Part shown: positions 50,834 through 53,885 of the stretch, one piece after another
How positions within the stretch are numbered: position 1 is the first letter of the stretch
How the letters are laid out: the number at the start of each line of letters is the position of its first letter
Assembly: GCF_024612015.1 (NCBI RefSeq)
Contig: NZ_CP102512.1
Span: forward strand, 620,001 to 684,000
From: Streptomyces sp. CA-210063
GTDB lineage: Bacteria > Actinomycetota > Actinomycetes > Streptomycetales > Streptomycetaceae
Direction: 5' to 3'
Length of the DNA stretch: 64,000 nt
The notes under the pieces: model-generated
Seen by the model: only the letters and a program-made list of their open reading frames with translations
Told to the model about the DNA's origin: nothing
Database searches by the model: none
Translations under genes and position numbers: made by a program

Positions 50834-51499
50834 ATGGGCCGGGCTGCTGTCTTTGATGTCGACGGGACTCTTGTCGATACCAATCATTTGCATGTGGTCG
50901 CTTGGTGGGAGGCGTTTCGGCAGGGTGGGCATCAGGTGGCCATGCATGACATTCATCGGGCGGTGGGGCTGGCGTCCGGGGACCTGATCACGCATCTGCT
51001 GGGTGAGGAGCGGGATCCGGAGGAGAAGGACGCACTCAGTGCGGCGCACAAGGCGCTGTACGGGACGTATTTCGACCGGCTGCCCGCGTTGCCGGACGCG
51101 GGGCGGCTGTTGCGGCGGCTCGACGGGCAGGGCTGGAGCGTGGTGCTGGCGACCTCGGCGGGCGGGGCGGAGCTGGCCGCGTTGCGGCGGGCGATCGGGG
51201 CCGATGACGCCGTCATGGCGACGGCGAGCGCGGATGACGTGGCCGAGGGGAAGCCCGCGCCTGATCCGGTCGAGCAGGCCCTGGAGCTGGCGGGTGCGTC
51301 GGCCGAGCGGTCGGTGTTCGTCGGGGACACGGTCTGGGACATGCGGGCGGGCGTCCGGGCGGGGGTGCGGTGTGTGGCGGTGCTGTGCGGTGGCATTCCG
51401 CGGCCCGAGCTGGAGGCGGCCGGCGCGGAGGCGGTGTTCCGGAATCCGGCCCATCTGCTGGCCGCGCTGGAGGAGAGCCCACTGGGCCGGGAGGAATGA
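50834..51499 (+). CDS. HAD superfamily hydrolase (phosphatase, beta-phosphoglucomutase-like)
   Basis: Cytoplasmic phosphatase of 221 residues. Motif I FDVDGTLVD gives the nucleophile Asp8 and Asp10; motif II Ser/Thr in VVLATSAGG; motif III Lys in EGKPAPDP; motif IV VGDTVWDMRAG. The helical cap (residues about 18-85) is of the C1 type, as in phosphoglycolate phosphatase or beta-phosphoglucomutase. AGGAAGG precedes ATG 50834. Substrate unknown. Confidence 0.9.
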   Translation: MGRAAVFDVDGTLVDTNHLHVVAWWEAFRQGGHQVAMHDIHRAVGLASGDLITHLLGEERDPEEKDALSAAHKALYGTYFDRLPALPDAGRLLRRLDGQGWSVVLATSAGGAELAALRRAIGADDAVMATASADDVAEGKPAPDPVEQALELAGASAERSVFVGDTVWDMRAGVRAGVRCVAVLCGGIPRPELEAAGAEAVFRNPAHLLAALEESPLGREE

Positions 51500-51604
51500 C
51501 CTGGTGACAGCGGCTGTGGGCAACCTTGGGCGACGTGACACAGCTCACCGGCGATGTCCGGATGCGGAAGGAACACCCGCTGGTACTTTTCCGTTGAACC
51601 AGCC

Positions 51605-51770
51605 GTGGGTGCGGATGGGACAGTGTCCCCGGGCCTCACCTTTTGCCCACAGGGACGATCGTTCGGCTGAAGCCCTGTGGAGCCTTTCGCCGAGAGGCGA
51701 CCGCCATCCGCGCCCACACACAGACCGCCCCGACCGTGATTCCCCCGTCCCGGTCGGGGCTTCCTCTTTC
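51605..51770 (+). ncRNA. Candidate structured RNA with intrinsic terminator
   Basis: A 14-bp closing stem, GTGGGTGCGGATGG (51605-51618) with CCATCCGCGCCCAC (51704-51717, one G-U pair), encloses further helices: GGGAC-AGT-GTCCC near 51617-51629, CCACAGGG (51647-51654) with CCCTGTGG (51673-51680), and TCGCC-GAGA-GGCGA (51687-51700), whose loop is a GNRA tetraloop. An intrinsic terminator, GCCCCGACCG (51727-51736) with CGGTCGGGGC (51751-51760) and a T-rich tail, follows after 9 bp. The region has no protein-like frame. It lies between convergent genes, so it is not the leader of a downstream plus-strand gene. Its 5' end could extend to about 51500, where more short hairpins occur. Confidence 0.55.
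51727..51770 (+). terminator. Intrinsic terminator of the candidate RNA
   Basis: GCCCCGACCG and CGGTCGGGGC form a perfect 10-bp stem with a 14-nt loop, followed by TTCCTCTTTC. Classic U-tract terminators are rare in this genome window, which makes this one stand out. Confidence 0.8.
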
Positions 51771-51840
51771 CCACCTGGCCCTTTCCCACCTGGCCCTTTC
51801 CCACCGGGTCCTTTCCCACCTGGTCCTTTCCCACCTGGTC
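51766..51840. repeat. Five tandem 15-bp repeats (CTTTCCCACCTGGCC type)
   Basis: Five consecutive 15-bp units at 51766, 51781, 51796, 51811 and 51826, differing only at the last positions (GGCC, GGTC) and one CGGG. They fill the space between the RNA terminator and the end of the convergent dipeptidase gene. No function is apparent. Confidence 0.85.
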
Positions 51841-51858: not shown

Positions 51859-52515
51859 TCAGGCGTCGAGTTCCCGCGGTCCGTACAGCGCGGCCGGTGC
51901 CCCCGTCATCAGGGCCCAGTAGCGGTCGCCGTACGACCAGTGCCACCACTCCGTGGGGTAGTTGACCAGCCCTGCCTCGGTGAGGGCCGCACCGAGCGTC
52001 TCCCGGTGGGCGCGGGCCTCGGCGGTGATGTTGTCGGCCCCCGTGTAGCAGGCGCCGGCGCTCTCCTCGGGGCTGGCGTTGACCGGCGTACCGAAGTCGA
52101 GCTCCCGCCCGTCGGCGTCGACGAGGGTCAGGTCGACGGCCGCGCCGGCGGAGTGCGGGGCTATCTCGGGCGGGGAGACATAGCGGCTGGCCGCTGCGCG
52201 GATGCGGTCGGCCGGCCAGTCGGGGTGCAGGGCGCGCTGCTCGGCCGCGTACTCGTCGAAGTACCGGCGCTGCAGGGACGGCGGCCGGTAGCCCTCGACG
52301 AACAGCAGGCGCAGTCCGTCCGGCAGCAGGGCCTGGGCCTTGACCAGCCGGTCGAGCACGCCCGCGCGGAGATGGGCGTAGGCGCCCGTGGTGTCGACCT
52401 TGCGCTCGTCGACCAGCAGGGAACCGTCCCGGCGTACGTCGACGAGCGGCTCGTCGCAGTCGTGGACGGGTACGGCCGCCACCTTCGGGTCGGACATCAG
52501 GATGATCTCGGTCAT
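51859..52515 (-). CDS. D-Ala-D-Ala dipeptidase (VanX-type, peptidase M15D)
   Basis: Zinc dipeptidase of 218 residues cleaving D-alanyl-D-alanine. The VanX residues are in place: Arg77 (VEGYRPP), zinc ligands His121 and Asp128 in HSAGAAVDLT, catalytic Glu189 and third ligand His192 in PTEWWHWSYGD. No signal peptide, so it acts in the cytoplasm. Unlike vancomycin-resistance clusters, no vanH, vanA or vanRS genes are adjacent, so it may serve peptidoglycan recycling. ATG 52515; ATG 52497 is a less likely start. It is divergent from the epimerase gene. Confidence 0.92.
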   Translation of the reverse strand: MTEIILMSDPKVAAVPVHDCDEPLVDVRRDGSLLVDERKVDTTGAYAHLRAGVLDRLVKAQALLPDGLRLLFVEGYRPPSLQRRYFDEYAAEQRALHPDWPADRIRAAASRYVSPPEIAPHSAGAAVDLTLVDADGRELDFGTPVNASPEESAGACYTGADNITAEARAHRETLGAALTEAGLVNYPTEWWHWSYGDRYWALMTGAPAALYGPRELDA

Positions 52516-52856
52516 GGGCTGATCATCTCGTGGGCTCGGCCGGTTTCTGCGGGAATCGGCCAGGCCGGTCGCAGGGGCGAGCTCCGGTGGCTCGGGCGAG
52601 CCGGTGCCTCAAGACGGTGGCTCAGGCAAGACCGTGGCGGATGGCTCAGGCAAGACCGTGGCGGGTGGCTCAGGCAAGACCGTGGCGGGTGGCTCGGGCA
52701 AGACCGTGGCGGGCAAGACCGTGGCGGGCAAGACCGTGGCGGGCAAGACGGTGGCCGGGCATCGGTGGGCTCGTCCGGTGCGGCTGCCTGTATCCGCCCG
52801 GCCCGGGTACTCGTGGGCGGCCCTGCGGGAATCGAAGCGCGCGAGAGGAGTCAGCG
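52516..52856. other. Divergent intergenic region with a composite minisatellite
   Basis: This 341-bp gap has promoters for the dipeptidase (minus) and the epimerase (plus, GAGAGGAG before GTG 52857). Its middle is a 24-bp plus 15-bp repeat array (52619-52755), annotated separately. No convincing gene. Confidence 0.5.
52619..52755. repeat. Composite minisatellite: 24-bp units then 15-bp units
   Basis: Three full 24-bp units (GGCTCAGGCAAGACCGTGGC plus GGGT or GGAT) at 52619, 52643 and 52667 are followed by a shortened unit and then four 15-bp units (GGGCAAGACCGTGGC) at 52696, 52711, 52726 and 52741. The 15-bp unit is the 24-bp unit with 9 bp deleted, so the array has grown in two steps. Confidence 0.9.
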
Positions 52857-53885
52857 GTGGACGGAGAATCCGGCAGCAGGATCGTGGTCACTGGCGCCAC
52901 CGGCAATGTGGGGACGAGTCTGGTGCGGCTGCTCGCGGAGGACGCGGAGGTCGGTCGGATTCGGGGACTGGCCCGTCGGATTCCCGACGGGGCGCCCGCG
53001 AAGACGGACTGGTCGGCCGTGGACCTGGGATCCGAGGAGGCCGATCTGGTCAAGGAGTTCGAAGGGGCGGACGCGGTCGTCCATCTCGCCTGGGCCTTCC
53101 AGCCGACGCACGATCCGGCCGTGACCTGGCGGACCAATGTGCTGGGCAGCATGCGTGTCTTCGAGGCGGTGGCGGCGGCGAAGGTCCCGAAGCTGGTGCA
53201 CGCCTCGTCGGTCGGCGCCTACTCACCGGGGCCGAAGGATCACGCGGTCGACGAGTCGTGGCCCACGCACGGATGGCCCGACGCCGCGTACTGCCGGGAG
53301 AAGGCGTATCTGGAGCGCGCGCTGGACTCCTTCCAGCACGAGCATCCCGGGGTCCGGGTGATACGGATGCGGCCGGCGTTCCTGTTCAAGCGGGAGTCGG
53401 CGAGCGAGCAGCGCCGTATCTTCGGCGGGCGTTTCCTGCCGGGGCCGTTGGCCCGGCCCGACCTGCTGCCGTTCCTGCCCGACATCCCCGGGCTGACGGT
53501 GCAGGCCCTGCACACCGACGACGCCGCCCAGGCGTACCGGCTGGCGCTGCACACCGACGTCCGCGGGGCCTTCAACCTCGCGGCCGAGCCGCCCGTGGAC
53601 GCCGCCCTGCTCAGCGAGGTGCTGGGTTCCCGTGCGGTGCGGCTGCCCAGGGTCGCGGCCCGGTCCGCGGTCGCCGCCGCGTGGAACCTGCGGTTGCTGC
53701 CCGCCTCCCCGCACCTCTTCGACGCCGTACTGCGGCTGCCGCTGATGGACTGCACCAAGGCCCGCGACGAACTGGGCTGGCGGCCCGAGCGCACGGCGGT
53801 GGAGGTCCTGGAGGAGTTCCTGGAAGGAATGCGACAGGGGGCCGGGGCGGAGACGGAGCCGCTGCGGGGGCGGAAGGTCGGCTGA
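52857..53885 (+). CDS. NAD-dependent epimerase/dehydratase (extended SDR) family protein
   Basis: Nucleotide-sugar-epimerase-like oxidoreductase of 342 residues. NAD-binding motif VVTGATGNVGTSLVRLL (TGxxGxxG), Asp after RGLARR replaced by RIPDG, active-site region HASSVGAYSPG with Tyr-x3-Lys expressed as YCREKAYLE. The C-terminus DCTKARDELGWRPERTAVEV is the typical epimerase ending. GTG 52857 has GAGAGGAG upstream; the much longer open frame that runs through the repeat array is rejected. Substrate unknown; monocistronic. Confidence 0.87.
   Translation: MDGESGSRIVVTGATGNVGTSLVRLLAEDAEVGRIRGLARRIPDGAPAKTDWSAVDLGSEEADLVKEFEGADAVVHLAWAFQPTHDPAVTWRTNVLGSMRVFEAVAAAKVPKLVHASSVGAYSPGPKDHAVDESWPTHGWPDAAYCREKAYLERALDSFQHEHPGVRVIRMRPAFLFKRESASEQRRIFGGRFLPGPLARPDLLPFLPDIPGLTVQALHTDDAAQAYRLALHTDVRGAFNLAAEPPVDAALLSEVLGSRAVRLPRVAARSAVAAAWNLRLLPASPHLFDAVLRLPLMDCTKARDELGWRPERTAVEVLEEFLEGMRQGAGAETEPLRGRKVG

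Follow-up and report, generated by a model that had tools for sequence, protein, structure and literature searches.

Genomic context and predicted structure of the RNA

The window analyzed here is a stretch of 64,000 nt from the genome of Streptomyces sp. CA-210063 (NZ_CP102512.1, positions 620,001 to 684,000). Between a gene for a HAD hydrolase and a reversed gene for a VanX-type D-Ala-D-Ala dipeptidase, a structured RNA was found on the plus strand (51605-51760). It consists of a closing stem (P1), a bulged hairpin (P3), a GNRA-capped hairpin (P4) and a separate terminator (Table 1). A previous reading, made from the sequence only, had named a closing stem, two hairpins, one of them with a GNRA loop, and a separate terminator on the plus strand, and all of these were found in their places. 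The inner part of the terminator was recovered by a terminator scan.

Table 1: Features of the RNA locus in the window
Feature	Position	Strand	Remarks
HAD hydrolase gene, upstream neighbour	50834..51499	+	Pfam PF00702/PF13419; synteny
Palindrome GTGACACAGCTCAC, GTGA-N6-TCAC	51535..51548	+	centre about 61 nt 5' of the predicted start
-35 element GGAAC, SigR-type ECF promoter (predicted)	51570..51574	+	
-10 element GTT (CGTT from 51592)	51593..51595	+	spacer 18 nt
Predicted primary transcript	51603..51765	+	about 163 nt; both ends inferred from the positions of promoter and terminator
Closing stem P1, 5' strand	51605..51618	+	14 pairs
Long joining segment with GUGUCCCCGGGCCUCAC	51619..51644	+	near-invariant in Streptomyces; variants class-wide
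Hairpin P3	51645..51683	+	51645-51654 with 51673-51683; bulged A51681
P3 apical UCG/UGA stem	51659-51661 with 51668-51670	+	loop UUCGGC
Hairpin P4, CGCC-GAGA-GGCG	51688..51699	+	GNRA tetraloop
Closing stem P1, 3' strand	51704..51717	+	partner of 51605..51618
Intrinsic terminator	51727..51769	+	10-bp stem 51727-51736 with 51751-51760; short U/C tail TTCCTCTTTC
VanX-type D-Ala-D-Ala dipeptidase gene, downstream neighbour	51859..52515	-	Pfam PF01427; variably present
SDR/epimerase gene	52857..53885	+	Pfam PF01370; SCO0792 position by gene count

The predicted 163-nt unit has a folding energy of -88 kcal/mol, compared to a mean of -64.7 for 200 dinucleotide shuffles (z -5.49), none of which reached a value as low. 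In the minimum-energy fold of the lone sequence, part of the interior is paired otherwise than in the P3/P4 model. The two hairpins are favoured over this fold by the comparative alignments described below. No second copy was detected in the genome of the window at E ≤ 1. Right behind the terminator (window 51769-51840), a tandemly repeated unit of about 15 nt (CCTTTCCCACCTGG-like) was seen by eye.

Conservation within Streptomyces

A search with the HAD gene yielded 219 confirmed candidates, of which the best 80 loci, nearly all named Streptomyces, were kept. A full copy of the RNA, defined as at least 140 of 166 nt aligned, is present in 60 of these 80 loci, in every case on the same strand relative to the HAD gene as in the window, and 55 of the 60 show stable synteny. 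In four loci (L013, L017, L068, L075) most of the core is deleted while the promoter, the base of P1 and the terminator are kept. Six of the 80 carry the HAD and epimerase genes without a copy of the RNA. For the other ten, neither a copy nor the HAD-epimerase synteny was detected in the fetched stretch.

The window and 60 relatives were aligned, leaving out L053, L075, L013, L017 and L068. Across these 61 sequences the core (51611-51710) reaches mean identities of 0.89-1.00 in blocks of ten columns, compared to mostly 0.2-0.65 in the adjacent spacer. The joining segment shows 95-100% identity per column, except for 51641-51644. Outside the core, short upstream blocks are conserved as well (GTGAC..TCAC, GGAAC and CGTT).

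In a BLAST search of 150 Streptomyces genomes, 101 gave matches, some of them short and several at 2-5 places per genome, and 49 gave none. From these genomes 60 divergent places were fetched, a set in which paralogs and displaced orthologs are pooled. One contig (G129) carries mirror-image copies close to both of its ends.

Covariation of the predicted stems

Alignment A2 contains 57 Streptomyces sequences, and its structure was partly derived from these same sequences. Here, 95.3% of the cells pair and double changes occur in 17 of 34 pairs, a number found in 0 of 500 shuffles. There are 149 double-changed cells versus 45.3 in the shuffles, and on each of the five measures the alignment exceeds every shuffle. 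When the 3' partners are displaced by 1-3 columns, only 40-46% of the cells pair. Alignment A4 contains 92 sequences fitted to the model, of which 95.8% of the cells pair. Double changes are found in 20 of 31 pairs, equalled by one of 500 shuffles, and the other four measures by none, with shuffles that ignore the kinship of the sequences in A4 as in A2.

P1 has double changes in 11 of 14 pairs in A2 and in all 14 in A4. For P3 they were found in five of the ten lower pairs, and in A4 23 of 91 scored copies have C-G in place of the apical U-A pair. The stem of P4 is near-invariant and has one-sided changes only, without double changes. Its loop follows the GNRA rule in 77 of 92 copies (GAGA, GCGA, GUGA, GGGA); 11 copies have GCGUA and four another loop. 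This variation within the GNRA rule suggests that the loop may take part in a tertiary contact. The terminator stem shows double changes in alignment A1. A further hairpin considered during the analysis, P2 (GAC/GUC), was rejected: it has no covarying pairs, one of its pairs is broken in 8 of 57 sequences and conservation of its 5' side does not extend across the class. In the predicted fold, P1 and P3 are thus demonstrated by covariation, and P4 is supported by the variation of its loop within the GNRA rule. The sequence-only reading had made its proposal dependent in part on conservation or covariation in relatives, and both were found.

These data also bear on a possible coding function. 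The transcript could be read as a leaderless mRNA for a peptide of 21 codons starting at the GTG of P1, and none of the 59 parsed copies of the main locus interrupts the frame. However, the third codon positions vary least (substitutions of 4.9%, 2.8% and 1.9% at positions 1, 2 and 3), only 39 of the 58 divergent rows preserve the frame (the window being a row in both sets), and the base pairs of the RNA covary. Production of such a peptide is hardly credible.

Distribution beyond Streptomyces

For identification of more distant copies, a covariance model built from Streptomyces sequences only (R1) was applied at a threshold of E ≤ 0.001. Matches were obtained in 66 of 296 genomes of the class and in 32 of 114 genera. 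17 of the 66 genomes belong to the genus of the window and 49 to 31 other genera. The weakest matches outside of Streptomyces lie at E near 1e-3, so that a few of them could be due to chance. A second model (R2) gave matches in 93 of 394 genomes and 43 of 137 genera, but it was trained partly on the searched genomes, and the independent figure is that of R1. For one family, in which two copies are the rule, the names of the best protein hits for one gene point to Streptosporangiaceae. Closely adjacent copies occur in L199, L201 and L214. A short form of about 90 nt with a reduced P3 was found in L213, L214, L215 and L217. The joining segment varies across the class, for example to GGGCUCC, and short forms are without GUGU.

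The sequence-only reading could not assign the RNA to a known class. This was confirmed by covariance searches against Rfam 15, which contains no family over the RNA and gave no match at gathering level in the window. In a relaxed scan of the locus (E ≤ 5), only an irrelevant lncRNA model was reported, upstream of the RNA. Among 20 class-wide loci six Rfam matches were obtained, none of them over the RNA, and in a relaxed scan of six loci the sole match was a miRNA model, located at the terminator of L195. In L213 (1542-1632 and 1887-2077), a short-form copy and the Rfam Ms_IGR-5 sRNA (RF02471) are located about 255 nt apart, on opposite strands.

In a plasmid collection, 62 records matched at E ≤ 0.01 (Streptomyces 47, Rhodococcus 11, Prescottella 2, [Kitasatospora] 1, Nonomuraea 1); several of these exceed 1 Mb, and the Nonomuraea record, with 11.85 Mb, is of chromosome size. 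With a class-wide copy as the query, no plasmid or phage record was matched. Together with the mirror-image copies by both ends of the G129 contig, the plasmid records would be expected of an RNA that is associated with plasmids or chromosome ends, acting in copy control, as an antisense RNA or as a selfish element, and domesticated at the HAD-epimerase locus. Against such an origin stand the syntenic position of the window-type copy in 55 of the 60 loci with a full copy and the phage records, among which no match to the RNA was detected. We consider it improbable.

Promoter and upstream palindrome

The consensus of SigR promoters is given as GGAAT-N18-19-GTT in the accessible part of the source (PMC9205884). 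The -35 element in the window deviates from it by one base, and by its motif the predicted promoter is of SigR type. Promoters could be parsed in 59 of 61 rows of the main locus, where the core pattern was not found in L040 and L063, and in 58 of 61 rows of the divergent set, where L133 and L156 have no promoter motif and the core pattern was not found in L142; the window is a row in both sets. GGAAC occurs in all 59 parsed copies of the main locus, with a spacer to GTT of 18 nt in 58 and of 17 nt in one. The divergent set contains GGAAC in 47 and GGAAT in 11 of the 58 rows, always with a spacer of 18 nt.

A similar picture was obtained across the class for the 29 copies in 24 fetched loci, a subset of the R1 matches with one Streptomyces locus (L218). 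GGAA[T/C/G]-N18-19-GTT was found in 21 of these 29 copies, ending 4-11 nt 5' of P1, compared to 0.07 in shuffles and 0 on the reverse strand. Four of the five short-form copies have it. The model itself does not contain the promoter, and the motif is therefore independent support for weak model matches. In 8 of the 29 copies the motif is absent. These copies, the 49 of 150 Streptomyces genomes without a match and the four core-deleted loci indicate that the RNA is dispensable.

Upstream of the promoter, 52 of the 59 copies of the main locus carry GTG-N8-CAC at a distance of 34-35 nt from the -35 element, and one copy has no palindrome. In the divergent set it is found at 34-36 nt in 30 of 58 copies, while 20 have no palindrome. 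GTGA-N6-TCAC is a putative CRP-like site, and its location at about -61 would be that of a class I activator. A search of the literature for Crp together with Streptomyces sRNAs gave nothing useful. A scan of the genome for the composite promoter detected one further site, without a matching RNA. This second GTGA-N6-TCAC / GGAAC-N18-GTT arrangement has the same spacing (G000:C1:4304078-4304138, L178). It lies between two genes on the minus strand, presumably rex-like and glutaredoxin-like as named from their sequences, with no called plus-strand gene behind it.

Conservation, covariation and the conserved promoter all back what the sequence-only reading had proposed, an independent small RNA. 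There is strong support for reading the element at 51605-51760 as an independent structured small RNA, equipped with a predicted promoter and terminator of its own.

Relation to the neighbouring genes

The downstream surroundings of the RNA are variable. A vanX-type gene adjoins it in only some of the relatives, which suggests an insertion or repeated loss of this gene. Between vanX and the epimerase gene of the window, GGCTCAGGCAAGACCGTGGCGG-type repeats were observed by eye (52600-52750). The sequence-only reading had described the RNA as having no plus-strand gene behind it. This is correct for the window, where the reversed vanX gene is next, but not for 37 of the 55 syntenic relatives with a full copy. 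In these 37, a match to the epimerase/SDR gene starts within 250 nt on the same strand.

The RNA could accordingly be a cis-acting leader, a riboswitch or attenuator of the downstream gene with the terminator as the switch, and its complex fold and the co-directional epimerase match in the 37 relatives would suit this role. In the window and the remaining 18 of the 55 syntenic loci, however, the distance from the RNA to the epimerase gene is at least 295 nt, and six of the 18 have a reversed vanX match. At the 60 divergent copies the next gene, according to a crude gene caller, is on the opposite strand in 32 and on the same strand in 26, with no gene called in two. This mixture argues against a leader of one gene. 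In L201 and L214, tandem copies are followed by a reversed gene. Among the 24 class-wide loci examined, a given downstream family recurs in two at most. A constant position upstream of a co-directional gene, as expected for a leader, was thus not observed, and this explanation is disfavoured as very improbable.

Probable correspondence to scr0792 of S. coelicolor

The position of the RNA was transferred to the gene numbering of S. coelicolor by means of two close relatives, S. coelicoflavus (L175) and S. violaceorubidus (L176). Both have the order HAD gene, other gene(s), RNA, epimerase gene, eight called genes and a P450 gene. The last two of the eight genes match the DUF2470 and TetR genes of the window, both on the minus strand there. 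DUF2470 is, as we assume, a domain of HugZ-type proteins. The P450 of the window is closest to CYP102/BM3 structures and those of the two relatives are close to it; SCO0801 is taken here to be CYP102B1. In the parts of the literature available to us, SCO0799 is called HugZ-like (PMC12161575), the SCO0800-SCO0801 promoter region is listed among the promoters of transcriptional-regulator genes (PMC3293853) and CYP102B1 is present in S. coelicolor (PMC9728198). Counting back from SCO0799, the epimerase gene becomes SCO0792 and the RNA falls into the SCO0791-SCO0792 gap, by a count which relied on a crude gene caller in two close relatives and which assumes the same genes in S. coelicolor.

From this same gap, an RNA of about 85 nt named scr0792 was described in S. 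coelicolor and detected by northern blot with two probes. It was 712-fold enriched with RNA polymerase in the stationary phase and is described as low abundant (PMC11077062). With the same intergenic position by gene count in the same genus, the window RNA is very probably the ortholog of scr0792, an equality of position based on the gene order in the two relatives. The published length of about 85 nt differs from the promoter-to-terminator unit of about 163 nt in the window. Processing would be the simplest guess for this difference and has to be assumed.

The accessible text of the scr0792 paper gives no family, promoter, terminator, conservation or covariation for this RNA (PMC11077062). 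It was the only open-licence paper found on the SCO0789-SCO0793 locus, and the sRNA surveys found do not name the RNA in their available parts. The family, fold, promoter and spread were not found in the open-licence literature; an earlier name in sRNA tables is possible. The sequence-only reading had seen a candidate for something undescribed, which needs correction in one point: the very probable S. coelicolor ortholog has been in print as scr0792 since 2024 (PMC11077062).

Comparison with other bacterial RNAs

6S RNA is built as a long stem interrupted by a central bubble, whereas the window RNA is a junction with a GNRA hairpin. The 6S covariance models of Rfam gave no match in the window, and an assignment to 6S RNA was rejected. 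Like scr0792, 6S and Ms1/scr3559 are structured RNAs associated with RNA polymerase, as far as the accessible text describes them (PMC11077062). scr3559 originates from the SCO3558-SCO3559 gap (HAD-IB hydrolase / oxidoreductase) and is set apart by its locus from the window RNA, which is at SCO0791-SCO0792 by gene count. CoRP of Corynebacterium glutamicum shares with the scr0792 family that it is actinobacterial and associated with RNA polymerase. According to the same source it has 516 nt, lies between tRNA genes and has close homologs only within Corynebacterium (PMC11077062). The unit in the window, with about 163 nt between HAD and VanX genes, is a different RNA.

scr5239 is, like the window RNA, a conserved Streptomyces sRNA with its own promoter. 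From the parts of the sources available, it has 159 nt with five consecutive stem-loops, a GCUGCGG target motif, control by DasR and another locus (PMC4365011, PMC7025569). Its core motif GCUGCGG, located in its stem P4, is absent from 51603-51765, and this candidate was rejected as well.

Possible mechanism and significance

The comparison of sequences establishes a conserved fold, a conserved promoter element, a terminator and independence from the neighbouring genes. The best reading, to which we assign a probability of roughly 0.6, is an ECF-controlled trans-acting non-coding RNA which acts on RNA polymerase, is orthologous to scr0792 and belongs to a family of the Actinomycetes. According to its promoter, the RNA would be transcribed by an ECF holoenzyme of SigR type in stress or late growth, and in Streptomyces a CRP-like regulator at about -61 would probably add activation. 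The transcript would end at its own terminator and fold into a P1-closed junction with the bulged P3, the GNRA-capped P4 and the long joining strand that is near-invariant in Streptomyces. The folded RNA would bind RNA polymerase, for which scr0792 is the only published case. Once bound, it may adjust the activity of the polymerase or its use of sigma factors while SigR-type stress programmes run, as a short counterpart of 6S and Ms1 RNA. Enrichment with the polymerase is by itself no proof of a regulatory effect.

Base pairing to mRNAs is a common mechanism of bacterial sRNAs and provides the main rival to an action on the polymerase. The RNA would then act in trans with the GUCCCCGGGCCUCACC strand (which has CCUC) or the P3 loop as the seed, and its enrichment with polymerase would be incidental. 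In Streptomyces scr5239 acts by base pairing, according to the available text (PMC4365011), and the near-invariant and possibly unpaired joining strand would offer a suitable seed. Against this, a scan of the genome of the window with the 14-nt complement of the joining strand, allowing one mismatch, gave 13 near-matches versus 13 for the reversed control, and the sole exact site is the gene of the RNA itself. Conservation is equally strong in stems and loops, as would suit a protein-binding RNA. We regard base pairing as the rather unlikely of the two mechanisms.

Beyond the preferred action on RNA polymerase, a more far-reaching proposal can tentatively be made, although we give it clearly less than an even chance: an Actinomycetes-wide RNA family driven by the SigR-type stress sigma factor may bind and remodel RNA polymerase under thiol or antibiotic stress, with scr0792 as its first glimpse. 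To our knowledge, only few kinds of RNA bind bacterial RNA polymerase. If true, a further kind of polymerase-regulating RNA, short and plasmid-borne, would stand beside 6S, Ms1 and CoRP.

It is very likely that scr0792 is a member of an old family of structured RNAs, which sometimes occurs in several copies and whose stress-type promoter is conserved. An isolated RIP-seq peak would thereby become a testable class of regulatory RNA in antibiotic producers and other Actinomycetes, for which the family provides a structure and a set of invariant residues, together with natural deletions of the core and the prediction of an inducer.
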